From an uncultured Roseburia sp. (GTDB lineage: Bacteria > Bacillota > Clostridia > Lachnospirales > Lachnospiraceae), in contig CANRYS010000019.1 of NCBI GenBank assembly GCA_947644305.1, positions 1 to 63,939 on the forward strand: a stretch of DNA of 63,939 nt. Direction: 5' to 3'. The notes under the pieces were generated by a model. That model did not search any database and was not told the origin of the DNA. It was given only the letters and a program-made list of their open reading frames with translations. The translations under genes were made by a program, and so were the position numbers. Within the stretch, counting starts at the first letter, position 1, and every line of letters begins with the position of its first letter. Of this stretch, positions 11,971 through 51,138 are shown in pieces.

Positions 11971-13731
11971 TTACTGATTCTGGCGTTCTTCATTTTCTAT
12001 CAGAATGCACTGTTTGTCCTGAATCCGGTATATCCGGCTGCAGATCTTGAGGACAGCCTGCCGATGGGTAGTGACGATACAGGTTCTTGGGTAGCGGTCT
12101 TCTTGAATGTGCTGCAGGATCTGGCGCTCTACCTCGATATCCAGCGCGGAGGTGGCTTCATCCAGAAGCAGAAAGGCAGACTTGCGCAGCAGCGCTCTGG
12201 CGATGGAGAGACGCTGTGCCTGGCCTTCTGAAAATCCTCCGCCCCGTTCCTTGATCTTACTGTGGATGCCCTCTGGCAGAGCGGACACAAATTTCCATGC
12301 ACATGCCATCTCCAGGGCATGGATGATCTCCTCGTCAGAAGCATCGGGTTTGACATTTCTCATATTTTCTGCGATGGTGCCGGAAAACATAGTATTTCCC
12401 TGGGGGACGTAAGAAAAAAGTTTGCGGCAGGAGGGGGATAATAAGAGGGTTTCCGTGGCTCCCGGACCTGTGCCCTGCAGTGTGATGGAACCCTCCTGGG
12501 GTGTCAGCAGTGCCAGGATCAGACGGAGCATGGTGGTTTTTCCCTCTCCAGAGGGTCCTACCAGGGCAATGATCTCATGGGGGCAGGCGTGGAGACTGGC
12601 ATTTTCGAATACTTTTGTCCCCGCCTGATAGGAATAGGTGATATGAGATACTTTCAGGCGGAGCCCCTGTTCCCTGTGACGTTCGTAAAAAGAGAGAACG
12701 GCGTCGTCCTGGCTAAAGTCCTCCTTCGGCATATCCAGAATGTCCATCAGGCGGCCGGCAGAGGTGGTCAGACTGATGGCATTTGGAACCAGACCGATCA
12801 GGGCATTCAGTGTCCCGGTCAATGTGCCTGATAGGGAGAGGAACATGGTCATGGTACCATAGCTGATAACGCCGTCCCAAACCCGGTAAATTCCCCAGCC
12901 ATAGGAACTATAGCTGACAATAAGGCCGACAACAGACATAAGGATGGAGGAGATCATGGACAATTTCTGGAAATCCAGCCGCATGGACAGATACTCTGTC
13001 TGAAGACTTTTTAAATATTTGATATAGACCGGAATCAGGTCAAAAGCTTTTATGGTCTGTATATTGGAAAAGGCTTCCTGGTGAAAGCCGGACATACGGG
13101 CATTCAGGGCGGCGCTTTTCTGGTTGTTGTGGATCATCCGCTTCATTAGTGTCCGGGACATAAGCAGTGTTACGGGAATGCCGATAAAGGAAAATATAGC
13201 AAAAGAAGCATCATAGTAGATGACGATGGCAAAGGCGCTGATAAATTTAAAAGTATTGATGATCAGACTGGGGATCCAGTTCAAGATGCCATTGGAGATA
13301 TTGGAGGCATCGGAATTCCAGCGAGTAAGAAGGTCTCCGGTATGGTAGGTAGAGATGGATTCCCAGTCCGTCACCAACATTTTAGAAAAAATATCGGCTT
13401 TGATCTCATTATCCACCCTTATACTGATCCAGTTTGACATATAGCTGGAAAACTGGTTCATCACAGTACTGCCCAGCGCCAGACCGATCATGGCGCAAAA
13501 TGCCTTTAGTAGCTCACCGGTCTGGTGTCCGGTGATGATGTCGATGAGATCTTTGGAAACCAGGCTGCTTCCCAGGGATACAACGGTTCCCACGAGTCCG
13601 ATCAGGGTATAAAACACGATCGCAAGCCAGTAACGTCTGGCATACCGGTAGATCCATTTTGTCTGAGAAAGCATATCGGTGAGGATTCCCTCCCGGATGC
13701 GCTTTTTCATATGTTTCAGAGTATCAAGCAT
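11971..13731 (-). CDS. ABC exporter (fused membrane and ATPase domains), peptide-type
   Basis: 586 residues on the minus strand. ATG at 13731 (MLDTLKH) has GGAG at good spacing; an ATG four codons upstream does not. The N-terminal six-helix exporter domain (about 25-320) is followed by an ABC ATPase: GPSGEGKTTM (Walker A), FSEGQAQRLS (signature, variant of LSGGQ) and LLLDEATSALD (Walker B). There is no C39 leader-peptidase domain. It lies 57 bases downstream of a PqqD/HPr-kinase-like gene in the same direction, an arrangement seen in RiPP-type loci, so the cargo may be a modified peptide; no precursor peptide was found nearby. Confidence 0.85.
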   Translation of the reverse strand: MLDTLKHMKKRIREGILTDMLSQTKWIYRYARRYWLAIVFYTLIGLVGTVVSLGSSLVSKDLIDIITGHQTGELLKAFCAMIGLALGSTVMNQFSSYMSNWISIRVDNEIKADIFSKMLVTDWESISTYHTGDLLTRWNSDASNISNGILNWIPSLIINTFKFISAFAIVIYYDASFAIFSFIGIPVTLLMSRTLMKRMIHNNQKSAALNARMSGFHQEAFSNIQTIKAFDLIPVYIKYLKSLQTEYLSMRLDFQKLSMISSILMSVVGLIVSYSSYGWGIYRVWDGVISYGTMTMFLSLSGTLTGTLNALIGLVPNAISLTTSAGRLMDILDMPKEDFSQDDAVLSFYERHREQGLRLKVSHITYSYQAGTKVFENASLHACPHEIIALVGPSGEGKTTMLRLILALLTPQEGSITLQGTGPGATETLLLSPSCRKLFSYVPQGNTMFSGTIAENMRNVKPDASDEEIIHALEMACAWKFVSALPEGIHSKIKERGGGFSEGQAQRLSIARALLRKSAFLLLDEATSALDIEVERQILQHIQEDRYPRTCIVTTHRQAVLKICSRIYRIQDKQCILIENEERQNQ

Positions 13732-13788
13732 AATATTCTCCATTCTGGAGCGTATGGACGAGGCGAAGGAAATTCGCGAGGGCGCTCC

Positions 13789-14973
13789 TTAAACTGACAT
13801 GCCGCTTTCAGCGGCACCACCAAATTGACGCAGATGGCCATCGATGCGGGCCTTCATGTATTCCGCTGCTTCCCGTTCCATGTTGCAGAACAAACGGGTG
13901 ATATAGCAGGAGTTTGTGACTGCCGAGGCGATGTGGAGATTCTCATCCAGCATTTCCTCTGTCCAGGCAGGAGAGATACTTCGCTGCAGTACTAGAAGAG
14001 TTTTTTCGTCATCTGAGAGGTTCTGGCACAGGTTTGTGGTTGATTGTTTGAGAAGAACGATCCCGCCCAGTGGATAGGAAGCGGTATTGGAGATGCCGGA
14101 AGTCCCGCACCAGGGAATCCCGTGTATCATAGGAGTTCCTTTCTCGCAGGAGATCAGATTCAGATCCCCGTTTAATATCGGCGTGTGAAAATAGTGGTTC
14201 CACAGGTTTGTGTGAGTGGATTTGCCGGTGCCTGATGGGGCGGCAAAGAGCCACGCCCGTTCCCGGTAGTACAGGGAGGCAGAATGAATCGCCAGCCGTC
14301 CATGTTTTCCTGCCATGTACAGAAATACCAGCCGGATGGCATGGAACAGATCCGACAGAAGAGGTTCCCGGTATGGTGGAATCGCATAAAAGCGGGCAAG
14401 CGTTCCATCTTTTTGCAGTATGCACTCCTGCAGTTGATGAGACTGGGGGAACAGAATCCGGTATTCTCGTTCCTGTTCGCAGACCAAAAGATCCTCTGCC
14501 TGAATCCGAAGCAGTCCACCGGCGGGAGAGGCGGACAGGCCACTGGAGGGAAGGATCTCGATGGTCATGTCGGGGGACTGGGTCTCTCCGTTGCAAAAGT
14601 GTAGAAATTCTGAGGGTATCAGTTCTTTCGGGGCAGAAAGATGAAGGGCCAGTCCTCCGATCTTCATATCGACACCAGAACCTGACGGAGTCATGGGAGG
14701 CTCTTCCAGCATTCCCCAGGCGGTTAGCTGGTCCAGAAAGGAATTCATATCCTTTTTCAGCATATCTTTATCTTCCGAGGGGATCTCATAAGAATCTGCC
14801 AGAAGCGACAGTAGCTCGTTTCGATCCTTTGCGAATGGTATAAGATTCCAGATCTGTTCTCCAGTTTCATTTAATTTCATTCCTCTGCGCTGTTCGGCGA
14901 TGCGCTGTCCCACTGGAAGGAGATAGGGAACCTGATTTATTTTTTTTAGTAGGAAACCTTCGGTTTGTTTCAT
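13789..14973 (-). CDS. PqqD-like/HPr-kinase-like fusion protein
   Basis: 394 residues; ATG 14973 (minus) behind GGGAGG. Residues 1-90 resemble PqqD, the RiPP recognition element that binds leader peptides (MKLNETGEQIWNL; LDQLTAWGML). The C-terminal half (about 220-330) resembles HPr kinase/PEP carboxykinase-fold kinases, with LFAAPSGTGKSTHT as P-loop (245-252), followed by LNGDLNLI and GIPWCGTSG segments typical of the family. Such kinases accompany lasso and related peptide clusters. The adjacent ABC exporter and divergent S24/S26 peptidase support a peptide-maturation locus. No precursor is visible, so the locus may be incomplete. Confidence 0.75.
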   Translation of the reverse strand: MKQTEGFLLKKINQVPYLLPVGQRIAEQRRGMKLNETGEQIWNLIPFAKDRNELLSLLADSYEIPSEDKDMLKKDMNSFLDQLTAWGMLEEPPMTPSGSGVDMKIGGLALHLSAPKELIPSEFLHFCNGETQSPDMTIEILPSSGLSASPAGGLLRIQAEDLLVCEQEREYRILFPQSHQLQECILQKDGTLARFYAIPPYREPLLSDLFHAIRLVFLYMAGKHGRLAIHSASLYYRERAWLFAAPSGTGKSTHTNLWNHYFHTPILNGDLNLISCEKGTPMIHGIPWCGTSGISNTASYPLGGIVLLKQSTTNLCQNLSDDEKTLLVLQRSISPAWTEEMLDENLHIASAVTNSCYITRLFCNMEREAAEYMKARIDGHLRQFGGAAESGMSV

Positions 14974-15001
14974 GGAAAACCTCCCTTAAACAATTGATTT
15001 T

Positions 15002-15034
15002 ATTATAGCATTCTTTATGAGAAAATGCTATAAT
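15002..15034. promoter_or_regulatory. Symmetric divergent promoter element
   Basis: TTATAGCATT (15003-15012) and AATGCTATAA (15024-15033) form an inverted repeat. It contains a TATAAT on the plus strand (15029-15034) and one on the minus strand (15007-15002), facing away from each other. It probably drives the PqqD/HPr-kinase-like gene leftward and the RhuM remnant rightward, and the symmetry would suit an operator. Confidence 0.45.
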
Positions 15035-15078
15035 TCTTAGAAAATGACACAAAAACTGGTCTGCGGTATAATGGAGAT

Positions 15079-15881
15079 ATGGATTCATCCGGTGAAAACA
15101 TACCAAGAATGGAAGTTGGTAAGCGTGTTATGGCACATCAGCAGGAATTATCGGAAGAATCAACTTGTGCAAATTTTGCACAAGTTGCAGATAACGGAAA
15201 AACATATCAGTAAAATTTTATTCCTGTCTGCCATTATTGCGGTGGGATATCGGACGAACTCTGTCAGGGCAACGCAGTTTCGCCAGTGGGGCGACAAAGG
15301 TATTAGATACTTTTACAAAGCAGGGTTATGTATTGGATAAAGAAAAAGATTGCAGATATTTATGCAACAGCAGTGGATTATTCGCTGGACAGCCAGATAA
15401 CTAGAGATTTTTTTGCTACCGTTCAAAATAAAATGCATTATGCGTTCATGGAAATACCGCAGCAGAGATGATCGTGGAGCGAGCAGACCATAACAAAGAT
15501 CATATGGGGCTGACTAACTCGACGGTGCCAATTTGAACCCTGTTTCGTACTGCGCTAGCAGCAAAATAGCGTTGTTGCTTTCATTCGATGATGCCACCAC
15601 ATCACCTCATTCAAGCGCCTAGCTATTTTGTTGCTATCACAATCCGAAATCTTCGACCTCCGCTTGTGATTTTCCAATTTACAAGGAAACGGAATGAAAC
15701 GTACTGGAGGTACGTTGATTGACGTTGACGTAGCAAATTGGAAAATCACAAGTCGGAGGCAGGGTTCAAATTAGCGCCATCGAGCTACATGGAGAAATGC
15801 ACCGGAAGGAAAGATTGTAAAGACCGATGTATCCGTAGCAAAGAATTATCTATCCGTGGATGAAATGCAGGAACTAAATGG
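15079..15881 (+). pseudogene. RhuM-family protein, decayed and interrupted by a mobile element
   Basis: RhuM-like segments are readable in more than one frame. EESTCANFAQVADNGKTYQ ends at a stop (15211). After a shift come IIAVGYRTNSVRATQFRQW, then after another shift ATKVLDTFTKQGYVLDKEK and IADIYATAVDYSLDSQITRD, and further on IVERADHNKDHMGLT. The frame is then cut by the 273-bp element at 15515-15787 and resumes as TWRNAPEGKIVKTDVSVAKN. Removing the element and one TA rejoins GLT-TWRNAP exactly. At least one frameshift and a premature stop besides the insertion show the gene is dead. RhuM proteins are of uncertain function and are often near restriction or toxin genes. Confidence 0.75.
15515..15787. 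mobile_element. TA-inserted MITE-like element, copy A
   Basis: 273 bp bounded by TA dinucleotides and imperfect ~26-bp terminal inverted repeats (left ACTCGACGGTGCC, right GGCGCCATCGAGC plus flanking bases). Inside are two long hairpins: AGCAGCAAAATAGC (15557-15570) with 15622-15635, and CCTCCGCTTGTGATTTTCC onward (15657-15680) with 15735-15759. No transposase is encoded. The internal sequence is homologous to copy C (33520-33797). TA duplication and short ends suggest mobilisation by an IS630/Tc1-type transposase, by inference. Confidence 0.8.
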
Positions 15882-15908
15882 GTGCGCTATGACAAGGGAG
15901 GGAGCGAT

Positions 15909-16349
15909 ATGGACACCGGATTTGATCTGGAGCAGTTATTAGAGAATGGGAACCGGATTTGCGTCAAGCCGCAGGGCTACAGCATGTATCCCCTGCTTGT
16001 GCCGGGGCGAGATGCGGTGATTATTGAACAGCATGATTCCTATCGGCTTCGCCGGGGGGACATTGTATTGTTCCGGCGGGAGGGCAGTATCCTGGTCCTA
16101 CACCGTATCTGCCGTCGGCGTGGAGATGATTTTTTCATGGTGGGAGACAACCAGAAGCAGATCGAGGGACCCATCAGGAGAAAACAGATCAAGGGAAAGG
16201 TTACGACGGTGATCCGTGGTGGCAGAACCATATCTGTCGAGAACCGGCTGTATCGGATGTACAGCTTTATCTGGCTGTGGCTCCGGCCGTTGCGTCCCGT
16301 GCTGTCGAAGATGGTTCATTGTTTGAAAACGTTGTTTCGGGGGAAATAA
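15909..16349 (+). CDS. S24/S26-family signal-peptidase-like protein
   Basis: 146 residues; ATG 15909 behind GGGAGGGAG (an upstream in-frame GTG at 15882 lies in RhuM remnant sequence). QGYSMYPLL gives the catalytic Ser (S25) in the GxSMxP motif, RRGDIVLF the following strand, and LVLHRICRR a His (H65) where SipW-type peptidases use His instead of Lys. A hydrophobic stretch near the C-terminus (YSFIWLWLRPLRPVL) may anchor it. Small proteases of this kind accompany PqqD/HPr-kinase/ABC peptide loci, and that set lies divergently just upstream beyond the RhuM insertion. The substrate is unknown. Confidence 0.7.
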   Translation: MDTGFDLEQLLENGNRICVKPQGYSMYPLLVPGRDAVIIEQHDSYRLRRGDIVLFRREGSILVLHRICRRRGDDFFMVGDNQKQIEGPIRRKQIKGKVTTVIRGGRTISVENRLYRMYSFIWLWLRPLRPVLSKMVHCLKTLFRGK

Positions 16350-40517: not shown

Positions 40518-40546
40518 TTGACATTTTTTTCATATACATGTATACT
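40518..40546 (+). promoter_or_regulatory. Sigma-A-type promoter of the RiPP operon
   Basis: TTGACA (40518-40523), exactly 17 bases, TATACT (40541-40546). The spacer and -10 contain the palindrome ATACATGTAT (40534-40543), a possible operator. All seven genes to 48192 lie downstream in the same direction. Confidence 0.7.
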
Positions 40547-40595
40547 TTTTCTATAAAATATAAAATATTGACAAAAAGTGAGGGGTTAGAAGATT

Positions 40596-42398
40596 GTGAA
40601 GCGGATGGTAAAAATATCAGAGTTCTTACAAATGATTTGTTATTGCATAAAAATATTATGGAATACCTCAAAAAGATATTTTGTGACGCGTATGATTTTA
40701 AATATTGCCTCTCTTGTGATACCCTTTGTCGTAATCGCTGTTACCAGGCAGTTGATAAATTTCCTTGCGGAAAATAGTGTAGCGTCTGATGCAGTCATAC
40801 AGACTTTTATAATGCTGTCAATATTGTTATTGGGATGTAATATACTCAGTAAAGCCATTGAAACGGCGAATACTTATTATATGGGACTGCACCAGGACAT
40901 AATGGAGACAAAGACGAAGCAGCTTATTATGGAAAAGGCCGCGGAGCTGGATTTATCATATTTCGATTCCGCTGAATTTTACAATGAGATGCAGGATGCA
41001 AATGCCAACAGTTCCCTTATAACATTTTCTGCATTTCGGGCAATAGATTTTATCCGGTATTTTATCCAATTTTTGGTTGCCTTTGTATATTTGTTCCAGT
41101 TCAATTTTATCCTGCCTATTATTTTTGTGTTTGCAGTTATCCCATATACGATCGTGGACATTAAGCAGGTAGCAGAGGTCTATGGATTCCAGAGGAAGTA
41201 TATGGCAGAAGAACGGAAGATGCAATATGCGGCGGATGTGCTTCTGTCGCGGGAGTTTGCCAAGGATGTTAGGATATACAATATCGCTTCTTTTATTAGT
41301 GGGAAATTCCATGGTATTTGGAACATGCTATTTTCAAAAAAGAGAAAGATTTCCCTGCGGTACACGAGACTTCTTTTGGCACTTCTGACTCTGCCTGAAA
41401 TCGTTGCGGCATCGTTTTTGTTCTTCTTGGGATTGTCCGTAATCCGGGGCGGATATTCCATCGGGGATTTTACATATTTGCAAGGGCTTATGGGGCAGAT
41501 TTTGGGAAGCATATATATGGTGATTTCCAGTTACACGCAGCTTATGGATGGCAAGATTCGCATACAGAATTTTAGGAAGTTTTTGGGATTCCAGAATAAA
41601 GTGTGTTCCGATGGGATGCTGCCACTTGTGGGAGATTCTTTTTCCATTGAGTTTCGTGATGTCAGTTTTCGGTATGGAGATGACCTTCCCTGGATCCTTA
41701 AGAACGTCAGTTTTTCTTTCCATAGTAAGCAGAAGATTGCTTTCGTTGGAGTAAACGGGAGCGGTAAAACGACCATTGTAAAACTGCTGCTCCGTTTTTA
41801 TGAGCCGGTAAAGGGACAGATTCTGGTAAATGGAAAAGACTTAAAGGAATATGCGCTTGACAGTTTCCGCAGCCATTTTAGCACGGTCTTCCAGGACTAC
41901 AGTAATTATGCTTTTACGGTAAAGGAGTCGGTGTCTTTGTCTGATATCGGCAGGGCAGATGATGGGAACAGGGTCATGGAGGCTTTGCGGCAGAGCGGGG
42001 CGGATACCTTTACGGTCGATTTCCCGTATGGAGTGGATACTTATCTGACCAGAAGATATGAGGAAAACGGGCAGGAGCTGTCTGGTGGACAGTGGCAGAA
42101 GATGGCGCTTGCACGTGCATTCTTCCGCCAGGCGGATATTTATATACTAGATGAGCCTTCCGCTTCTTTGGATGCCAAGTCAGAAGATGAAGTGTTTGAG
42201 ATGTTCCATGAGATGTACGAAGGGAAAGGAGCTGTCCTGATATCGCACCGTCTATCCAATGTGCATTTGTCGGATTTGATATTTGTCCTGGACAATGGTT
42301 CCTTGGTTGAAAAGGGGACACATGGAGAACTGATGAAAGAGGATGGAGTGTATGCGCAAATGTACCGCCTGCAGGCTGAGAAATACCACTGTGCGTAG
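40596..42398 (+). CDS. ABC exporter of the Cys-rich peptide operon
   Basis: 600 residues; GTG 40596 after GAGGGG (an in-frame ATG lies at 40605). The N-terminal exporter membrane domain (about 20-330) is followed by an ATPase with GVNGSGKTTIVKLLL (Walker A), LSGGQWQKMALARAF (signature) and IYILDEPSASLD (Walker B), then ISHRLSN. It lacks the N-terminal C39 protease found in many bacteriocin exporters; the next gene encodes a subtilase-like protein that could instead trim the peptide. It is first in the operon, so it is likely co-expressed with the precursor and modification genes and exports the mature product. Confidence 0.88.
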   Translation: MKRMVKISEFLQMICYCIKILWNTSKRYFVTRMILNIASLVIPFVVIAVTRQLINFLAENSVASDAVIQTFIMLSILLLGCNILSKAIETANTYYMGLHQDIMETKTKQLIMEKAAELDLSYFDSAEFYNEMQDANANSSLITFSAFRAIDFIRYFIQFLVAFVYLFQFNFILPIIFVFAVIPYTIVDIKQVAEVYGFQRKYMAEERKMQYAADVLLSREFAKDVRIYNIASFISGKFHGIWNMLFSKKRKISLRYTRLLLALLTLPEIVAASFLFFLGLSVIRGGYSIGDFTYLQGLMGQILGSIYMVISSYTQLMDGKIRIQNFRKFLGFQNKVCSDGMLPLVGDSFSIEFRDVSFRYGDDLPWILKNVSFSFHSKQKIAFVGVNGSGKTTIVKLLLRFYEPVKGQILVNGKDLKEYALDSFRSHFSTVFQDYSNYAFTVKESVSLSDIGRADDGNRVMEALRQSGADTFTVDFPYGVDTYLTRRYEENGQELSGGQWQKMALARAFFRQADIYILDEPSASLDAKSEDEVFEMFHEMYEGKGAVLISHRLSNVHLSDLIFVLDNGSLVEKGTHGELMKEDGVYAQMYRLQAEKYHCA

Positions 42399-42502
42399 TA
42401 TTATTTGACTGTTTTATAGACAGTAGGATATATGTTAGCTAATGTCATGGTAAATATTATGGTGAATGGGGAGGTTTTTGTATTTCTAAAAAATATATTC
42501 GT

Positions 42503-43612
42503 ATGGCTGTTTTAGATGATGGGGTGCATCCGCAAGCCTGCCCGCTGGCAGGAAGCTTTTTGATTGATGATGATTTGAAGGTCACTGCATTAAAGGAAGC
42601 AGATGTTTCGCCATGCAGTCATGGCTCCATGTGTGCCCGCATTGTGGGGCGGTATACGGGACTGGATGATGTGGAGGTATTCAGCATACAGATTTTGCAG
42701 GGGGATACCTGGCGAGGGAATATAGGAAGGCTATTAGAGGCATTTAAATTATGTGTTTCCTTGGATATCCGTTTGATTCATCTTAGTGTTGGTACATATG
42801 TGTATGAGGACTTTGCAAAATTAGAAAAAGCTGTGAGACAGTTGTTGGATTCACACAGGCTTTTAGTGGCAGCCGCGGGCAACCGGGGAACGGTCACATA
42901 TCCTGCTTATCTGCCTGGGGTCATTGGGGTGAAGTGTCATCCGGGGCTTGTGGATAATGAATATATCTATTGTTATAACCCATTTACAAGGATTCATTTT
43001 CAGGCTTCTGCCAGGCATAGGTTGATGATAGAGGGGCAGGAAATGGATACCCCGGTATCAAACAGCTATGCGGCGCCATTGGTTACGGCGAAAGTACTTT
43101 CTTATCTTAAAGGAAATCCAGAATTAGAAAGGAATGAGATACTGCGTATGCTGACAGGGGATGCTGGAAGAGGAAAAATGCTGGGAAACAGTGGAATAAG
43201 AGATTATCCTCCAGTAGAGATTCCGGTGGTCTTGCTGAGTGGTTTTTCGGCTGGAAGACTGTCTGAAGTGATGGAATTTTTGGAAGGTTGCCTGCAGCGG
43301 GATGATTATGATGTAAGGACAGCTACTAATCTGTCCGGGGAGCGCCCGTGGGAAGAAACCGCCTTGCCAGATTCAGCAGATTTAGATTTTTTTTCGGCCT
43401 GGATGGCATGGTATTTTGCCTGTGAAATTATTTTGCTGGGCAGCGCTTCTTATATTCCGCCCGACAGATATGGGAATGTCAGCTTGTGGATTTATGGGGA
43501 TAGGGGTGTGGATTTTTTGAAAGGAAATGTAGTTACAGATGGGCAGGTTTTGGCAGTGGATGGATTGTCCAATATTGAGATATATAGATCTATGTTAGCT
43601 ATGCTGACATAA
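42503..43612 (+). CDS. Subtilase-like (S8) protease of the peptide operon
   Basis: 369 residues from ATG 42503. The S8 landmarks are AVLDDGV (D5/D6), PCSHGSMCARIV (H40), AAAGNRG (N127) and SNSYAAPLVTA (S188), so the triad seems complete though divergent (NSYAAP for GTSMAAP). It has no signal peptide, which suggests a cytoplasmic leader peptidase or maturation role. ATG 42503 lies 28 bases after the only good ribosome site (GGGGAGG, 42468-42474) and would cut into the first core strand. The same frame has an ATT at 42482, ideally spaced, giving SKKYIR before MAVLDDG, so an AUU start is possible. About 170 C-terminal residues have no assigned domain. Confidence 0.8.
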   Translation: MAVLDDGVHPQACPLAGSFLIDDDLKVTALKEADVSPCSHGSMCARIVGRYTGLDDVEVFSIQILQGDTWRGNIGRLLEAFKLCVSLDIRLIHLSVGTYVYEDFAKLEKAVRQLLDSHRLLVAAAGNRGTVTYPAYLPGVIGVKCHPGLVDNEYIYCYNPFTRIHFQASARHRLMIEGQEMDTPVSNSYAAPLVTAKVLSYLKGNPELERNEILRMLTGDAGRGKMLGNSGIRDYPPVEIPVVLLSGFSAGRLSEVMEFLEGCLQRDDYDVRTATNLSGERPWEETALPDSADLDFFSAWMAWYFACEIILLGSASYIPPDRYGNVSLWIYGDRGVDFLKGNVVTDGQVLAVDGLSNIEIYRSMLAMLT

Positions 43613-43739
43613 ATGAAATTTGATGCTAAACCATACAGCAGCAATGGGTGGCCACATGGCTAAGGTGTGTGTTTTGCATATAGTAACACAGAAAAGCTTT
43701 ATTTAGGCTGTAGAAAACAATCAGAGAGGAGGATGTCAA

Positions 43740-43946
43740 ATGAATAAAAAATTAGTTAAAACACGGAATGCCCGCTTGAATACGCTTGAGGCGATGGCTT
43801 GCGGTTGTGGTTGTGGCTGTGACTGCAATTGTGGAAACTGCAGTGCTGGCGGTTCTTTTAAACTTACAGAGAAGTCAAATATAGATGCAAAAAGAGACAG
43901 TACATATCGCAACGGGTCCGTTCAAATCGCTTTTGTAAGAGGTTAA
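43740..43946 (+). CDS. Cys-rich RiPP precursor peptide
   Basis: 68 residues; ATG 43740 with an excellent GAGAGGAGG site. Residues 1-20 (MNKKLVKTRNARLNTLEAMA) form a basic leader-like part ending LNTLEAMA. Residues 21-34 are the core CGCGCGCDCNCGNC with seven Cys alternating with Gly/Asp/Asn. A GGSFKLTEK...VQIAFVRG tail of 30-odd residues follows. The gene lies between the protease and the modification enzymes, and matches my recollection of the CLI_3235-class (TIGR04065) peptides processed by the CcpM radical SAM family. The Cys residues are probable sites of thioether or other linkage; the actual modification is not deducible from sequence. Confidence 0.88.
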   Translation: MNKKLVKTRNARLNTLEAMACGCGCGCDCNCGNCSAGGSFKLTEKSNIDAKRDSTYRNGSVQIAFVRG

Positions 43947-43954
43947 TATGGTAT

Positions 43955-43987
43955 TTCTGGTGAAACCTGGCCACAGTTTCACCAGAA
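43955..43987 (+). terminator. Strong hairpin after the precursor gene (attenuator)
   Basis: TTCTGGTGAAAC (43955-43966) pairs perfectly with GTTTCACCAGAA (43976-43987) over a 9-base loop; A-rich then T-rich sequence follows. Placed between precursor and enzymes, it probably raises the precursor-to-enzyme ratio by partial termination or 3' end protection. Confidence 0.7.
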
Positions 43988-44033
43988 AAATATTGTGTAA
44001 AATTTTTTGATTTTATAAAGAATGGGGAATTAA

Positions 44034-45305
44034 ATGGATATTTTTGAAAAACGAGAGGAAGATAATAGGCTTCAAAATATTTTGATGCAATCATATCAAG
44101 AGGTGGATTTTTATTCAACCCATAATTTTTTAAGTGAAAAACAAATGAATTCTTTGCAATTATCAGATTTTCCGCTACAGGATAGACAAACGATCCAACA
44201 GCAGCATGGGCGTTTTTTGAATGGCCGTTATCAGCGGTATCCTGATATTGAGAGTCTGCTGGTTCAACATAGTTTTGGAGTGTCAGGTATCCCTTTAGAG
44301 GTTTACTGGGACAGACGGGATGTTTCTCGTGCCCAGGAGGCTTTGTGGGCATTTCGGGAGGAATTCGCAGGTGTTACTTCAGATGACAAATGCTGTGTGT
44401 TCTGCACCGCAGAATACGCAGGAAATAAAATTATGGATTATATGCCAAAGCGTTTCAGCTGGGATAAGAAAATTTTATCAATTTCTATACGGGGACTGTC
44501 ATTGAAACACTTAAAAAGATGTTTAGATGATATTTCTGCTTTTGATCCTGTATGGATGTGTCTTTCTCCTAGTACAGCCCTGATGTTAGCGGAGGCGATG
44601 GAGTCATTTGGAAGATTATTTTTGCCTAGTCTGCGTTATATTGAGTTGAGTGGGGAGATGTTAGATGAGCAGACGGAATCTGTGATACGGAATGCTTTTC
44701 ATGTACAGATTGCCAATGTATATGCGACAAAGGAAGCAGGACCAGTTGCAGTTTCATGTGAACATGGAAATATTCATATTTTCCCTGGAAACACGGTGGT
44801 AGAAGTGATTCGTGATGGAAAGCCGGTTATGGATGAAGAAGGGGATGTATATATCACTTCTCTTCAAAATAATGCAATGCCCATTATTCGGATGAAGACA
44901 GGAGATCGCGGAATATTGCGGAGTACCCATTGTTCTTGTGGGCGTGGGACGCCAGTGCTGTGTTTGACCAGGGGAAGGGATTGTGGATATATCACTACAA
45001 CATCCGGAAGGAAGATTAGTGCTCTCGTATTGAGAAGCATGGCGGAATATGCCAATGAAGAAGTATCACGGTGTTTGTCATATATCCGCTTCAGGCAGAC
45101 AGGCCATGCAGACATGGATGTTATCCTAAGAGTCAAACCAGCATTTGAGGGTTGGGAAGAGGAGATAGCAAGGGTATTTTGCGGGCAGGTCAGTGATTCC
45201 GAACTTGAACAGATGAAATGGAATTTTATATTTGTAAAACCTGAATCAGCAGAAACTGAAATGGAAGATAAGCCGTTTTTTGAAGTATGTGGGGAGGTAG
45301 AATGA
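44034..45305 (+). CDS. Adenylate-forming enzyme, F390 synthetase/phenylacetate-CoA ligase-like
   Basis: 423 residues; ATG 44034 with GGGG at modest distance. It belongs to the ANL-type group near coenzyme F390 synthetase and phenylacetate-CoA ligase: QHSFGVSGIPLEVYWDRRD (phosphate-loop equivalent), YATKEAGPVAVSCEHG (YxxxE motif), MKTGDRGIL (TGD motif), CSCGRGTPVL (CxC zinc-like site). Such enzymes activate a carboxylate as an adenylate. Here it could activate a peptide carboxyl or a small acid for the peptide. Its stop overlaps the start of the radical SAM gene (ATGA), so the two are translationally coupled. Confidence 0.82.
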   Translation: MDIFEKREEDNRLQNILMQSYQEVDFYSTHNFLSEKQMNSLQLSDFPLQDRQTIQQQHGRFLNGRYQRYPDIESLLVQHSFGVSGIPLEVYWDRRDVSRAQEALWAFREEFAGVTSDDKCCVFCTAEYAGNKIMDYMPKRFSWDKKILSISIRGLSLKHLKRCLDDISAFDPVWMCLSPSTALMLAEAMESFGRLFLPSLRYIELSGEMLDEQTESVIRNAFHVQIANVYATKEAGPVAVSCEHGNIHIFPGNTVVEVIRDGKPVMDEEGDVYITSLQNNAMPIIRMKTGDRGILRSTHCSCGRGTPVLCLTRGRDCGYITTTSGRKISALVLRSMAEYANEEVSRCLSYIRFRQTGHADMDVILRVKPAFEGWEEEIARVFCGQVSDSELEQMKWNFIFVKPESAETEMEDKPFFEVCGEVE

Positions 45306-46735
45306 TCATGATAGGCGAAAAACCATTTATACATGCGATGAAAACACCGTTGCGCAATTATATATACGATGTTAATACAAATATGTTCGTAGATGTGGAC
45401 GGAGATACATACCAGTATCTGGAAAAAGTAGAGCGGAGTGATGAGGGGTTGGCCTCTGTTGCTGATAATCGTATCAAGCAGAATCTTGAGATTCTGCTTG
45501 CACAGGGGTTTCTTTCATCTAAGCATCCGAAGAAAATCCGACAGAGTCAAAGTGATTTTATGGAGTACCATTTGAATGAGAATATTGTACAGATGGCATT
45601 ACAGGTAACCCAGCAGTGTAATTTTCGTTGTGCTTATTGTGCATACTGCGCCAGTGATTTTGAATTTCAGAGAGATCATTCATCCAAACGGATGTCAATT
45701 GAAACTGCACTAAAAGCGGTTGATTTTTTTGTTGCCAGATGTGGAAACCAAGAGGATCCGGTTATTGCTTTTTACGGAGGGGAACCGTTATTGGAATTTC
45801 CATTAATCCAACAGGTAGTGCAGTACGCAAGAGAAAAATTATATGGGAAAAATTTAAGGTTTACCATCACCACGAATGCTTCCTTGCTTACTCCGGACAT
45901 TGCATATTTTTTTATGGAAAACGATTTCATGACTACGATAAGCCTGGATGGAACATCGGAAACTCATGACCGGTCCCGAAGGTTTGCCAGTAATGGGAAA
46001 GGAAGTTTTTCCGCAATTCGGCATAACTTAGAAAGTATAAAAAAGCAATATCCTGAATTTAAATTTACTTTTAATATAGTGATTGATCCGAGATATCCCT
46101 GTGATTCTTTACATGAAATGTTCAGCCAGGATGAACTTTTTCGAGATGCGCAGCTTATGTCAACTTTGATTGACGACCATTTTTCAATTGAAAAGACGAT
46201 CCCTGACGAAGCTTTTATTCAGCAGGACAGTCAATATACCTTTAAAAGTTATTTAGCTGTTAGGGGGGTGTATCCCAGAGAGAGTGCTTCTAATATAGCG
46301 TATACGTCTTTGAACGCAAACTTTAGCCGTATTAAGACGAATATGAGGCCGAAAGTATCTTTGGCAGATATATCGGCGCCGGGGGGACCGTGTATTACAG
46401 GTGAGAGACGCCTGCTTGTTAGTGCGGAGGGTAATCTGTATCCTTGTGAGAGAGTCAGTGAGTCATCGCAGGCTATGAATATTGGGAATTTGTGGGATGG
46501 ATTTGATTTTGAGAAAGTGGATAAAATTCTGAATGTTGCCCAGACAACGGCGGAGGACTGCAAAAACTGCTGGGCTTTCCGGCATTGTACACTTTGTGGT
46601 AAGTATAGTGACAACTGCGGGGAATTGTCAGCGGATTTGAGGCGTTCCCAGTGTGATGGCGTACGGGCGCAGGTAGAAGAAACATTTAGGGATTACTTGT
46701 GGATGAAAGAATTTGATGTTTTGGAAGGTATATGA
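45302..46735 (+). CDS. Radical SAM/SPASM peptide maturase, CcpM-like
   Basis: 477 residues; ATG 45302 in the ATGA overlap, with GGGGAGG upstream. The first ~100 residues look like a leader-binding (RRE-like) domain: PLRNYIYDVNTNMFVDVDGD, NLEILLAQGFLSSK. QQCNFRCAYCAYC holds the Cx3Cx2C cluster (C106, C110, C113) with an extra C116. The barrel has VIAFYGGEPLLEFP and FTITTNASLL. The C-terminal SPASM region has CITGERRLLVSAEGNLYPCE and CKNCWAFRHCTLCGKYSDNCG for auxiliary clusters. SPASM maturases make thioether or C-C crosslinks in peptides. The Cys-rich precursor is the obvious substrate. Confidence 0.92.
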   Translation: MIMIGEKPFIHAMKTPLRNYIYDVNTNMFVDVDGDTYQYLEKVERSDEGLASVADNRIKQNLEILLAQGFLSSKHPKKIRQSQSDFMEYHLNENIVQMALQVTQQCNFRCAYCAYCASDFEFQRDHSSKRMSIETALKAVDFFVARCGNQEDPVIAFYGGEPLLEFPLIQQVVQYAREKLYGKNLRFTITTNASLLTPDIAYFFMENDFMTTISLDGTSETHDRSRRFASNGKGSFSAIRHNLESIKKQYPEFKFTFNIVIDPRYPCDSLHEMFSQDELFRDAQLMSTLIDDHFSIEKTIPDEAFIQQDSQYTFKSYLAVRGVYPRESASNIAYTSLNANFSRIKTNMRPKVSLADISAPGGPCITGERRLLVSAEGNLYPCERVSESSQAMNIGNLWDGFDFEKVDKILNVAQTTAEDCKNCWAFRHCTLCGKYSDNCGELSADLRRSQCDGVRAQVEETFRDYLWMKEFDVLEGI

Positions 46736-46752
46736 TTGAGGAGGTTGCAGTT

Positions 46753-47883
46753 ATGCGTATGCTTGTATTTCCATATGGATTTGACTGTGAGCCGATTATT
46801 CGGCATGCTGGTTTGTTGGAACCATGTTATGAAATCGCGGCACTGGTTTCTCCCGGTGGCTGGGGGCTGTCTGCGAAAAATATAGCGGTGGGAAATGATG
46901 GAACTGTATTGCCTGTTTATGAGGATCTTGAGGAAGTGGAAGAAGAATTTGATAGTCTTTTTATTCCTGAGTTTGAGGTTGATGAGGTAGTAGAAAACCG
47001 ATTGATAAATAAGATGATGACACTGATTCCAAATATATCAACGGTAATTTGTGCTGCCTCTCTCACTGCTGAGAATCGGAAAAGGCTTGAGGAATTATGC
47101 TACACTTGCGTTCCATCCTGTAAGTTTATTGATATCTCTGTGAATAAAAAGGTTGAGGAATACGGCCTGACGGTTTCCAGTGAGAAATATCCTTCTGTGA
47201 ATCCGTTGAGTATTCCAGTAGTAGTTATAGCTGGAACATGGGAAAAGACTGACAAATTTGAGATTTCCTTATCATTGCGTGAACGTTTTATGAGAGACGG
47301 TTTTAAAGTGTCCCAGATAGGCTCCCGTCATGAATGTGAGATGCTGGGGTTCCATTCTTTCCCGGGATTTATGTTTCAAAAAGATTTGGATGGAATTGAT
47401 AAAATCATATGTTTGAACCGTTGGCTCATTCAGATCGAAGAGAATGAACAGCCGGATGTAATCTTGATTACCATACCAGGTGCAATGCAGGATTTTAATG
47501 AGAAATTTACAAGGGGATTTGGCCTGCTGCATCATCTGGTATTTCAGGCAGTTATGCCAGATGTGATTTTGATGTGTACGTTTTATTTACGTGAGTCTGA
47601 AAAAGCCTTGGAAGAGTTATCTATGTCCTGTAAGTATAGATTTGGTGCACCGGTAGATATGTTCCATATGTCAAATCTGTTTATCGATTTTCAAGAATCT
47701 GAGGAACGTAATAGAATCGTTACGAACAGTATATATCGGGAAATGGTTTCAGAAACGGTTGCGAAGGATTTTTCAAACAGCTCTGTACCAGTTTTCAACG
47801 GGGTGGACTCCCAGGAGTGTGATCGGATGTATGAAATGTTGATGGAAAAATTAATGCCGAAGGATGTTCGGGCTGTTATATAA
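46753..47883 (+). CDS. Peptide maturation system protein, TIGR04066-like
   Basis: 376 residues. ATG 46753 is preferred (GAGGAGG 8 bases before); an ATG at 46732 overlaps the previous stop. No catalytic motif is evident to me. The N-terminal part (MRMLVFPYGFDCEPIIRHAG) and central LSIPVVVIAGTWEKTDKFE, a P-loop-less nucleotide-fold-like strand, match what I recall of the TIGR04066 family that occurs only with these Cys-rich peptide clusters. Its function is unknown; a scaffold or ligase partner role is possible. Confidence 0.75.
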   Translation: MRMLVFPYGFDCEPIIRHAGLLEPCYEIAALVSPGGWGLSAKNIAVGNDGTVLPVYEDLEEVEEEFDSLFIPEFEVDEVVENRLINKMMTLIPNISTVICAASLTAENRKRLEELCYTCVPSCKFIDISVNKKVEEYGLTVSSEKYPSVNPLSIPVVVIAGTWEKTDKFEISLSLRERFMRDGFKVSQIGSRHECEMLGFHSFPGFMFQKDLDGIDKIICLNRWLIQIEENEQPDVILITIPGAMQDFNEKFTRGFGLLHHLVFQAVMPDVILMCTFYLRESEKALEELSMSCKYRFGAPVDMFHMSNLFIDFQESEERNRIVTNSIYREMVSETVAKDFSNSSVPVFNGVDSQECDRMYEMLMEKLMPKDVRAVI

Positions 47884-47907
47884 AGTTAGTGTTTGGAGGT
47901 GATAAGT

Positions 47908-48192
47908 TTGGAAAGCAGAAACAGGGCAGATGCTACAGTAGAAAAAGTAAGAAAAGAAATAGAGGGTCTCCTGCATGACAGATTTGATGTGTCTGAAGAT
48001 TTTGCATCAAGGGAGAACGATAATTTCTTTGGGCTGCAGGGGTTATTTGGGCCCAGGGAACTGACCTATGTTTCATACATGCTAGAAGCACGGTATGGCA
48101 TACAATTTAATAAAAAAGAATATGATGACCCAAAGTTCTATAGTATATCTGGATTATCTGAAATTGTTGCCCAAATGCTGTCTGAGGATTAA
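47908..48192 (+). CDS. Acyl-carrier-like protein lacking the pantetheine serine
   Basis: 94 residues; TTG 47908 with GGAGGTGAT at 47895 (an in-frame TTG at 47893 overlaps that site). The helix pattern and NDNFFGLQGLFGPRELTYVS...EARYGIQF resemble acyl carrier proteins. Where carriers have DSL before the second helix this protein has GPR, so the serine that takes 4'-phosphopantetheine is missing. This fits the 'acyl carrier-related' (TIGR04069-type) member of CcpM clusters. It probably acts as a protein-binding module rather than a carrier. Last gene of the operon. Confidence 0.72.
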   Translation: MESRNRADATVEKVRKEIEGLLHDRFDVSEDFASRENDNFFGLQGLFGPRELTYVSYMLEARYGIQFNKKEYDDPKFYSISGLSEIVAQMLSED

Positions 48193-48408
48193 GAGGGAAC
48201 TACGAGAAGAGTAAATATTTGCTTTAGTGTCTGAAAATATTTATCTTTTCCCTCCTAAGAAAATTGAAAATAGATACATATTGTGGTATGCTAAATAAGG
48301 AAAAAAGTTTATTCTTAAAATGAATTCAAAAAATGGTGGGGTTAGCGAACAAACTACTTTTACATATCAAGGGAAACCAGCGAGCGAATAAGAAATAGAG
48401 AGGAACAA
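48193..48408. other. Intergenic region after the peptide operon
   Basis: GAGGGAA (about 48193-48199) can pair with TTCCCTC (about 48250-48256), and AAATATTT with AAATATTT inside it, forming an extended two-part stem without a T tract. It probably marks the operon end. A TATTGTGGTATGCT stretch near 48280 may be part of a promoter for the helicase gene, with no clear -35. Confidence 0.4.
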
Positions 48409-51138
48409 ATGAATACGAGATATTATATGATTATTATTAAAGGCGAAATAAAGACGTCTGAAATAATGTCATGTCAATACAATGAAGATACCAACAAATG
48501 GGATGTGAAATTTAATAATGGAAAAACATATTCATATGGATATTTGAATGTGGAAAAGTTAACACATCCAGAAGTTCATAATCCCAACATGTATCGTATT
48601 AGAAGAAAAGGACGCGAGTTTTTCGATATAAAAGCCATATATGAATTTAAAAGTATAAATGATTCTTACTGGCATATCTGTTTTGGTGATGGTAGTGAGA
48701 GAGATTATCGTCAGAGCGAATTAAATATTGTTGAGTCATGCCTTAATCAAAGCCAGTCTGTAAATGTATTTGAATATATAAAGCAGATTGCAGGTTTGAA
48801 TGATATTAAAAATGAAGAAACCGGCGAAAAGTTATTGAAAAAAAGGTTTGAAAAGATCTCTTTTGTAGGTAATGATGTAGCATTAGCAAAGTATTTAAAT
48901 CCGTCTTCATTGCAGGATGGTATAATGAGGAGTGAATATATACCAATTTTTCCGTTTGGATGTAATAACAGTCAATATAAGGCTGTTAAAAGTGCTATGG
49001 AAAATCAGATTAGTGTTATTTTGGGGCCGCCCGGCACAGGCAAGACACAAACTATATTAAATATAATTGCCAATATATTAATGCAGGGAAAAACGGTTCA
49101 GATCGTATCTAACAATAACTCGGCCACCGAAAATGTGTATGAGAAATTATCTTCTCCGAAATACAATTTAGGTCTTGTTGCCGCAACATTAGGTAGTTCG
49201 GAAAACAAGAAAATATTTTTAGAGCATCAGGACATAAATTATCCTGATTTTTCGTCGTGGAAAATGGAAGAAGATCCAAGTGTTGTGCAGAAGAGAATTT
49301 TAGAGCAATCTATTCAGCTAAAAATTGTTTTTGATAAGCAGGAAAGATTGGCGTGTTTAAGACAAGAACTTTCGCAGTTGGTTACAGAACTGGAATATTT
49401 TAATCAATATTTTGAAGAGTCAGTCATTAAAACAGAAAGCATAAAGTTTAAGAAAAATCTATCCTCAAAGTATTGGATGGCATTGTGGCAGGAGTGTCAG
49501 TCGATATCGGAAGAGAAAAAGGCAATCGGATTTTTGTTTAAGACCAAAGCCTTTTTAAAATATGGAATAGCGGATTGGAAATTCTACAAACAAGATATTT
49601 CAAAGATAATTACAATTTTTCAAGCTATGTATTTTCGTGCAAAGCAGGTGGAGTTATGTGCGGAAATTTCAGATATTGAAAAATATTTGAATAGTATGAA
49701 TAAAGATTTGCTTGAGGATTTGTGTAATCAGTCAATGTATGCATTAAAAGATAAGCTGGCGAGAAAGTATGAGGCCAACAACAGTCGTAGGATATTTCAT
49801 GAAGATAACTTATGGAAAGATCCATATGAATTTTTGACAGAATATCCAGTTATTTTAAGTACAACATTTTCGTCAAGAAACAGCTTGAATTCAGATGTGG
49901 TGTACGATTATCTCATCATGGATGAGGCATCGCAAGTAGATATTGCAACCGGTGCGTTGGCACTTTCGTGTGCAAGAAATGCTGTTATTGTAGGGGATAC
50001 GAAGCAGCTTCCAAATGTTGTTACAGATGATATAAAAGCCAAGGCAAAAGCTGTATTTGATAGTTTTAATATAAACGAAGGATATCAGTATACAAATAGC
50101 TTTCTGCAATCCGTTTTGGATGTTATGCCAAATGTAACGCAAACCTTGTTACGGGAACACTATAGATGCCATCCGAAAATAATTAATTTTTGCAACCAGA
50201 AATTTTATCGTGGCGAATTGATTATTATGACAACAGATAAGGGTGAAGCAGATGTTTTGTCTGTGGTTAAAACAGTAGCAGGTGATCATGAGCGTAATCA
50301 TTATAGTCAGCGTCAGATTGATGTAATTAAAAACGAAATTATGCCTAAATATGTTTTTAATCCAGAAGAGACAGGAATTATAGCTCCATACACAAATCAG
50401 GTGGAGGCGTTGGGTAGGGAGATTTGTAATTTTGATGCTGCTACGGTGCATAAGTTTCAAGGCAAGGAAAAAGATAACATTATTATATCTACGGTAGATG
50501 ATGTCATATCAGATTTTGCAGATGATCCATACTTAATCAATGTTGCTGTATCAAGGGCAAAGAAGAAGTTAATGTTGGTTGTAACAGGAAATGAACAGGC
50601 TAAGGAACGTAATATAACAGATTTAATAGATTATATTCAATATAATAATTTTGAGATTGTCGATAGTAAAATTTATTCGATCTTTGATTACCTTTATAAG
50701 CAGTATACCGAGGAAAGAAAGGCATACCTGCAGAAATATAAAAGGGTTTCTACATATGATTCGGAGAATTTAATGTATTCTTTGATAGAGGAGATTATTG
50801 CTGATAATAAGTATTCAAGTTTGGATATTATTTGTCATTTTCCGTTAAATATGTTGATTAAGAATTCGGAACTGTTGAGTGAACAGGAATGTCAGTATGC
50901 AATGAATCCAGCTACGCATTTGGATTTTCTGATATACAACAGAATTGGTAAAAAGCCTGTGTTGGCGATTGAAGTTGATGGATACGAATATCACAAAGAA
51001 AATACCGTGCAGGCTTCACGAGATTTGTTGAAGAATCACATATTGGAGTTGTATGAAATACCGTTATTGAGATTTAAAACAAATGGCAGCGGCGAAAAGG
51101 AAAGAATTGTAGAAGTGCTGGAAAAGTTGGTTGTATAA
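48409..51138 (+). CDS. SF1 helicase-nuclease fusion, candidate defence protein
   Basis: 909 residues; ATG 48409 after AGAGAGGA. An N-terminal ~180 residues (KWDVKFNNGKTYSYGY) is unassigned. The Upf1-like SF1 helicase core has VILGPPGTGKTQTI (Walker A), DYLIMDEASQVDI (motif II), VGDTKQLPNVV, LREHYRCHPKII (motif IV region), TVHKFQGKEKDNII and NVAVSRAKKKLML (motif VI). The C-terminus (about 800-909) resembles the PD-(D/E)xK-like DUF2726/Vsr group: HLDFLIYNR, VLAIEVDGYEYH, ILELYEIPLLRFKTNG. Such helicase-nuclease fusions are common in defence islands; here it lies near McrBC and an AAA/TPR pair. Confidence 0.8.
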   Translation: MNTRYYMIIIKGEIKTSEIMSCQYNEDTNKWDVKFNNGKTYSYGYLNVEKLTHPEVHNPNMYRIRRKGREFFDIKAIYEFKSINDSYWHICFGDGSERDYRQSELNIVESCLNQSQSVNVFEYIKQIAGLNDIKNEETGEKLLKKRFEKISFVGNDVALAKYLNPSSLQDGIMRSEYIPIFPFGCNNSQYKAVKSAMENQISVILGPPGTGKTQTILNIIANILMQGKTVQIVSNNNSATENVYEKLSSPKYNLGLVAATLGSSENKKIFLEHQDINYPDFSSWKMEEDPSVVQKRILEQSIQLKIVFDKQERLACLRQELSQLVTELEYFNQYFEESVIKTESIKFKKNLSSKYWMALWQECQSISEEKKAIGFLFKTKAFLKYGIADWKFYKQDISKIITIFQAMYFRAKQVELCAEISDIEKYLNSMNKDLLEDLCNQSMYALKDKLARKYEANNSRRIFHEDNLWKDPYEFLTEYPVILSTTFSSRNSLNSDVVYDYLIMDEASQVDIATGALALSCARNAVIVGDTKQLPNVVTDDIKAKAKAVFDSFNINEGYQYTNSFLQSVLDVMPNVTQTLLREHYRCHPKIINFCNQKFYRGELIIMTTDKGEADVLSVVKTVAGDHERNHYSQRQIDVIKNEIMPKYVFNPEETGIIAPYTNQVEALGREICNFDAATVHKFQGKEKDNIIISTVDDVISDFADDPYLINVAVSRAKKKLMLVVTGNEQAKERNITDLIDYIQYNNFEIVDSKIYSIFDYLYKQYTEERKAYLQKYKRVSTYDSENLMYSLIEEIIADNKYSSLDIICHFPLNMLIKNSELLSEQECQYAMNPATHLDFLIYNRIGKKPVLAIEVDGYEYHKENTVQASRDLLKNHILELYEIPLLRFKTNGSGEKERIVEVLEKLVV

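Follow-up and report, generated by a model that had tools for sequence, protein, structure and literature searches.

We describe here a peptide-maturation operon on a contig of an uncultured Roseburia sp. (GenBank assembly GCA_947644305.1, contig CANRYS010000019.1), whose 63,939 nucleotides are referred to as the window. Between positions 40596 and 48192, seven open reading frames (ORFs) run in one direction as a single operon, all of them present and in the order that the original prediction, made from the letters of the sequence, had given. By its gene families, the operon is a member of the known CcpM/CLI_3235 class of cysteine-rich ribosomally synthesized and post-translationally modified peptides (RiPPs), of the SacP23 type. 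Its features are as follows:

40518..40546, forward strand: sigma-70-like promoter TTGACA-N17-TATACT (11/12 match), about 50 bp ahead of the exporter start
40596..42398, forward strand: ATP-binding cassette (ABC) exporter of 600 amino acids (aa), MsbA-like by family and Pfam matches
42482..43612, forward strand: QhpE-like subtilase whose C-terminal domain is homologous to TIGR04066; translation probably starts at ATT 42482, the first ATG being at 42503
43740..43946, forward strand: precursor peptide of 68 aa (TIGR04065, 27.9 bits; cut-off 26)
43954..43988, forward strand: predicted RNA hairpin GGTGAAAC...GTTTCACC between the precursor and adenylase genes (z -4.6)
44034..45305, forward strand: adenylate-forming protein of the PaaK/F390 type whose nucleotide loop is degenerate; probable pseudo-enzyme by family matches and motif alignment
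45302..46735, forward strand: radical S-adenosylmethionine (SAM)/SPASM maturase of the CcpM type (TIGR04068, 486 bits)
46753..47883, forward strand: TIGR04066 protein with a predicted fold of the DUF1611 superfamily (Rossmann and P-loop-like); the ORF extends back to 46732
47908..48192, forward strand: TIGR04069 carrier-like protein with Pro at the phosphopantetheine Ser site; ORF open from 47893

What places this operon in the class, which Haft and Basu reportedly described in 2011 (cited in PMC7343975)? Searches with profile hidden Markov models matched all four families of the CcpM/CLI_3235 assignment made in the original prediction. The precursor lies above its TIGR04065 cut-off, and so does the TIGR04066 protein (286.8 bits; cut-off 200). 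The radical SAM protein scores just below the TIGR04068 cut-off of 500, with the next family at 198, and the small protein has TIGR04069 as its sole match, well below the cut-off (23.5 bits versus 70); its position fits and it aligns with the family. Among 299 genomes of the same family, TIGR04066 is present in 25 at E ≤ 0.001, ten of them above its cut-off. A scan with a CcpM alignment, of which the best 80 of many more matches were taken, gave 78 distinct loci, a set that leans toward the window's relatives. TIGR04066 was found in all 78, a TIGR04069-type small protein in 70, the subtilase in 49, the ABC exporter in 47, a pattern-detected precursor in 38 and an adenylase in seven; as 32 of the 78 stretches fall short of 19 kb, contig ends account for part of the absences. 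The TIGR04066 gene lies immediately 3′ of the CcpM gene in 75/78 cases (CcpM genes with at least 1.5 kb downstream in the fetched loci). Because the set recurs and this adjacency is so regular, the grouping is more than chance. Viral contigs searched with the TIGR04066 protein gave no match. Two radical SAM–TIGR04066 pairs each occur in L105, L155, L164, L166 and L171.

The original prediction knew of no described product for the class, a view that is overturned by SacP23 of Paenibacillus polymyxa. Going by the available part of its report, this peptide comes from a CLI_3235/TIGR04068/TIGR04066/TIGR04069 cluster expressed in B. subtilis, is active on S. aureus, B. cereus, B. subtilis and E. 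faecalis, and is inactive on L. monocytogenes, C. perfringens, L. plantarum and the Gram-negatives tested; its mass is 3404, Edman degradation was blocked and the structure is unsolved (PMC10731318). In P. brasilensis (L120), we find a precursor near-identical to that of SacP23, in a cluster without an adenylase.

The window precursor consists of a 20-residue leader, the cysteine run CGCGCGCDCNCGNC and a tail of 34 residues that lacks Cys. In the neighbourhood of CcpM/TIGR04066 genes, a pattern search returned 66 distinct candidates including this one, from 63 loci and with at least two evidently false, so that the expected Cys-rich peptides are indeed found in homologous clusters; several clusters hold two to three candidate precursor genes (L162 2953-3635, L156 11779-12239, L113 11982-12424, L175 11868-12920). 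Cysteines are mostly spaced i,i+2 (183 of 300 spacings of ≤12), and the residues between them are seldom Asp or Glu (5%). Six candidates were set aside; in the other 60, which have four or more cysteines in the run and a tail free of Cys, cysteine number correlates with tail length (rho 0.73, p 5e-11), at 3.3 tail residues per Cys. Correction for ancestry, using 53 contrasts on a phylogeny of 54 radical SAM proteins (59 peptides), left r at 0.62 and the slope at 3.32 (sign-flip p 0.0023); 35 of the 43 contrasts that were informative agreed in sign. The coefficient was 0.73 in 51 non-redundant peptides and 0.69 when the tail filter was lifted and at least three cysteines were required (63 peptides). 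Leader length, as defined by the script, showed the opposite trend (rho -0.31), and the count of tail Ser, Thr and Asn rises with cysteine number (rho 0.41). Since the tail lengthens with cysteine number, also after correction, the leader, Cys run and Cys-free tail suggest the precursor of a thioether peptide that forms a nested hairpin and is bridged up to seven times. In most known sactipeptides, Cys donors are N-terminal and acceptors C-terminal (PMC8326336, available text), and in RumC2, Cys22 and Cys24 pair with Asn35 and Glu31 (PMC8172795, available text), which provides a precedent for Cys-x-Cys donors. Between the window and its relative L098, the leader is identical (ratio of nonsynonymous to synonymous rates, omega, 0), whereas core plus tail shows gains and losses and an omega of 0.90 (47 codons); relative to L099, the values are 0.17 and 0.67. 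Being fast-changing, the tail appears to belong to the product. The maturase itself keeps CX3CX2C and seven C-terminal cysteines invariant across 19 sequences.

An adenylase is present in only seven of the 78 loci (L098, L099, L100, L102, L110, L113 and L159) and thus, judged by gene content, is an extra and not a regular part of the class. L098 and L099 are the window's closest relatives (radical SAM identity 92% and 71%). Together with that of the window, the CcpM-linked adenylases form one clade of eight (local support 0.984 among 23 aligned adenylases). The closest family of the window protein is NF045666 (83 bits; cut-off 300), followed by a weaker F390-synthetase-related match (38.5/252). 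The A3 nucleotide loop reads SFG[VML][SC]G in the window, L098 and L099 only, against a TSGSTG type in the other 20 of the 23; the window's own loop, SFGVSG, departs from that of ANL/PaaK ligases. A sequencing error is an unlikely source, as two relatives share the loop. Further changes in the window adenylase are YG to YA at A5, GRDCG at A8 and TGK to MED at A10, with the A10 Lys lost in L098 as well; A5, A8 and A10 are weaker evidence, because each is also altered in some of the other 20. The window-clade adenylases differ more from their intact relatives (mean identity 0.30) than do the radical SAM proteins (0.39; 15 pairs), whereas pairs of intact relatives show 0.42 for both (10 pairs), and TIGR04066 shows no comparable drop (0.27 versus 0.26); these means were computed by hand from pairwise values. 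Even so, an omega of 0.125–0.231, with synonymous divergence (dS) to L099 near saturation, indicates purifying selection and hence retention of the protein, which is probably a pseudo-enzyme. When 35 stretches (34 from same-family genomes, one from the window's own) were searched with it by phmmer, no relative turned up next to TIGR04066; the clade surfaced only through later, other scans, including that with the CcpM alignment. No title or abstract in a literature search, outside which most subscription journals lie, describes an adenylase in a CcpM cluster. A divergent cluster, L091 219-7521, holds an adenylase, a CcpM-like radical SAM protein (360 bits), a 75-aa Cys peptide, two ABC proteins and a 322-aa protein that is TIGR04066-like by eye and has no TIGR04066 family match; its adenylase and radical SAM genes stand in the same order as in the window.

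In four of the five loci with an intact loop (L100, L102, L113 and L159), a carrier with the Asp-Ser attachment motif lies directly upstream of the adenylase, and in the fifth, L110, there is only a distant small protein with Asn-Ser. The closest paralogues elsewhere mostly adjoin Asp-Ser carriers, some adjoining further AMP-ligases. In the window's genome, two adenylases of a related type (G000:C22 32141-33238 and G000:C15 41848-42879) each lie near an Asp-Ser carrier, and the 19-kb stretches around them, L082 and L083, have no CcpM or TIGR04066 gene; a TIGR04066-like match in L083 was rejected as a secreted subtilase drawn in by fused proteins in an early profile. The ORFs of the window and of the L098 and L099 stretches, 19 kb each, yielded no Asp-Ser carrier, and neither did the 71 loci without an adenylase; the single profile match in the latter (L105) belongs to the TIGR04069 type and has Ala at this position. 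Among 77 aligned proteins of the TIGR04069 type, the phosphopantetheine column reads Pro in 40, Ala in 26, Gly in 4, Thr in 1 and Ser in 6, so that Ser is absent in 71/77. (The 77 are 78 profile matches plus the window minus two adenylase-adjacent proteins, with a few duplicate rows and one, L110 17239, not adjoining TIGR04066.) All four adenylase-adjacent proteins and four reference carriers have Asp-Ser; the window protein, with Pro, lacks the mark of an acyl carrier protein. TIGR04069 thus looks like a carrier fold whose attachment site has mostly been lost.

Together, this suggests a SacP23-type thioether RiPP operon in which the adenylase is kept as a non-adenylating partner, a reading to which we assign a probability of roughly two in three. 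CcpM would bind the leader and link the run's seven cysteines to residues in the tail, which is free of Cys, forming a nested thioether hairpin. The QhpE-like subtilase, which leaves no room for a signal peptide, would cleave the leader in the cytosol near EAMA|C, and the MsbA-like pump would export what is probably a bacteriocin against Gram-positive bacteria. TIGR04066 and the Ser-less TIGR04069 protein may work alongside maturase and protease, either structurally, as a scaffold, or perhaps enzymatically, by capping. The adenylase would have been recruited once into a few such clusters, together with its own acyl carrier protein; in the window's lineage, the carrier would then have been lost and the nucleotide loop degenerated, leaving a partner protein. 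Bridges, cleavage site, export, antibacterial role and partner role are all inferred in this scheme. Several observations weigh against it: the two scores below NCBIfam cut-offs (TIGR04068 and TIGR04069); the near-saturation of dS to L099; the A7 TGD, which is intact in the window adenylase; the A10 Lys, which L099 retains; and, in other adenylases, an altered A5 (L094 and L096), an absent acidic residue at A8 (several) and a missing A10 Lys (L091). Some residual adenylation may therefore persist. The correlation of cysteines and tail could stem from a size limit of the enzyme instead of pairing, and CcpM matches ranthipeptide maturases as well (PapB, 184 bits), so that the bridges may be of another type. 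Finally, the SacP23 mass of 3404 does not match the full predicted core of about 4456; fitting it to fragments with 0–7 bridges and acyl groups gave nine fits within 1 Da, none compelling or diagnostic.

Alternatively, the product could be a ranthipeptide, with Cys bonded at the beta or gamma carbons of nearby or intervening residues and a tail that is structural or removed. The resemblance of the maturase to PapB and QhpD-type enzymes speaks for such bonds, yet the dominant Cys-x-Cys spacing leaves single residues in between, acidic residues are rare there, and the tail scales with cysteine number; we regard this as doubtful. Similarly unlikely, to our mind, is an adenylase that is still active despite its unusual nucleotide loop, with coenzyme A (CoA) or an acyl carrier protein encoded at another locus of the genome. 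The kept A7, the occurrence of the other motif changes in further aligned adenylases, purifying selection and the Asp-Ser carriers near the two paralogues of L082 and L083 are in line with activity, but the A3 break is seen in none of the other 20 and the gene has diverged faster than its radical SAM neighbour.

A hybrid scheme has less appeal still. In L100, L102, L113 and L159, the adenylase would load its dedicated carrier and TIGR04066 would move the unit to the N-terminus that the subtilase creates on a multi-thioether peptide; in the rest of the class, TIGR04066 would cap from CoA, with TIGR04069 as a docking remnant, and the window adenylase would be a fossil of the hybrid form turned partner protein. 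If true, this would combine carrier-protein chemistry with ribosomal peptide chemistry. The proposal of the original prediction, that the window adenylase activates an acid which the carrier-like protein carries and which is joined to the crosslinked peptide, fares much worse. In its favour, the genes lie side by side in one direction and evolve under purifying selection, and the CcpM clusters of intact-loop relatives couple an adenylase to a carrier with Asp-Ser; the window, however, has Pro at the Ser site, a degenerate A3 loop and no Asp-Ser carrier among its ORFs, and with an adenylase in 7/78 loci we consider this chemistry very improbable here. It should rather be sought in R. flavefaciens (L100), Herbinix (L102), Clostridiales (L113) and Clostridia (L159), in all of which the adenylase and the carrier appear intact.

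What, then, might TIGR04066 do? Its AlphaFold model is confident (mean predicted local distance difference test score, pLDDT, 93.6), and the best Foldseek matches in the Protein Data Bank (PDB) are the DUF1611 proteins 2g0t (E 1.6e-12, TM 0.62/0.69) and 2obn, followed by 7xrj, which is DgcN, titled an N-acetyltransferase (E 1.2e-8). DgcN acts on D-glutamate. A profile search of the PDB likewise had 2g0t on top (E 0.0016). Pfam DUF1611 was matched by 11 of 71 TIGR04066 members at E ≤ 5 (best 6.4e-5), the window protein not among them, and DapB_N by eight of the 71. Alignment by hhalign to a DUF1611 profile of two sequences only, since 299 genomes of the phylum held no more at E 1e-20, gave 97.2% (E 3.4e-11, 323 columns). 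We infer from model and profiles that TIGR04066 is a DUF1611-superfamily protein, fold-related to the N-acetyltransferase DgcN. This link seems to be new: no paper in the literature searched that names DUF1611 also names CLI_3235 or TIGR04066.

Part of TIGR04066 recurs in the C-terminal domain of the subtilase, a new inference that rests on comparison of family alignments (97.7%, E 2.3e-12); a single subtilase sequence matches the TIGR04066 profile weakly (2.3%). The protease scores 34.2 bits against Pfam S8 (cut-off 21.8), and its closest family is QhpE, NF049966 (73 bits, below the cut-off of 165). In 45 sequences, Asp5 and His40 are invariant and Asn127 and Ser188 are kept in at least 90% (numbering from ATG 42503). 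The start is probably ATT 42482, behind GGGGAGG; the aligned codon is ATG in L099 and ATT in L098. An AUU start codon could keep the protease level low. In the same genome, on contig C1 (G000:C1 58761-59813; L032 5059-12380), a 604-aa subtilase–TIGR04066 fusion is accompanied by a pair of ABC proteins, a carrier with Asp-Ser and a radical SAM enzyme of another type (TIGR04463/Clo7bot-like); a brief look at the small ORFs of L032 revealed no precursor. That TIGR04066 confers immunity, as proposed in the available text on SacP23, whose authors infer some encoded immunity as the B. subtilis host is itself sensitive (PMC10731318), seems the least probable alternative, given that TIGR04066 directly follows nearly every CcpM gene, has a predicted soluble nucleotide-binding-type fold, shares a domain with the leader protease and is fused to the protease elsewhere.

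As to the remaining features, beginning with the operon's postulated own promoter, the site at 40518 is the best of 21 in the region, but this total does not exceed that of shuffles (23.3 ± 5.6) and is at chance level. No terminator-like site is listed in 48192-48600. The TIGR04066 gene probably starts at ATG 46753 and the small-protein gene at TTG 47908, both read by eye. No C39 peptidase domain is among the 13 Pfam matches of the exporter. The hairpin core GGTGAAAC..GGCCAC..GTTTCACC, present once in the whole genome, is common to the window, L098 and L099 (z -0.75 and -3.5 in the latter two), and the hairpin may hold back transcription or shield the precursor message. Far upstream, at 11971-16349, an ABC transporter, a 394-aa PqqD/HPr-kinase-like protein and a signal-peptidase-like protein, as read by eye, are possibly part of another peptide system.

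Compared to known systems, the window operon is ordinary for its class in outline and an informative variant in detail. TIGR04066 matches DUF1611/DgcN proteins over nearly its full length in fold and profile; the GK-x-T-T and EGQG-x-L-x-HP stretches common to the two aligned DUF1611 proteins, however, are not kept, mainly the Lys of the first remaining (K175, 80% of 71). QhpE and an exporter have roles in quinohemoprotein amine dehydrogenase maturation, which resembles the window in joining a radical SAM thioether maturase, a QhpE-type subtilase and an ABC exporter. It differs from the QhpD/QhpE system in that the window subtilase scores below the QhpE cut-off and that the substrate is a small Cys-run peptide. 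For two RiPP families, TIGR04066 (through the DUF1611 superfamily and the domain common to the leader protease) and TIGR04069, testable roles can now be stated.

Closer to the window is a five-gene sactipeptide-like cluster of Roseburia intestinalis L1-82, which shares TIGR04068, TIGR04066, TIGR04069, subtilase and ABC transporter; in the available text, no adenylase is listed and the authors found no precursor (PMC4573289). The SacP23 cluster has a CLI_3235-type precursor of the same anatomy with TIGR04068, TIGR04066, TIGR04069, subtilase and ABC exporter. Unlike the window, it shows no adenylase in the authors' gene table, carries a sigma factor and another unknown gene, and has a product characterised by mass and activity only (PMC10731318, available text). 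Subtilosin A and thurincin H, nested-hairpin sactipeptides, have donors first and acceptors after, as the cysteine–tail scaling suggests for the window. Known peptides of this kind generally have 1–4 bridges (PMC8326336, available text), whereas the seven cysteines of the window precursor, mostly Cys-x-Cys, would, if bridged as predicted, give a nested hairpin with more thioethers.

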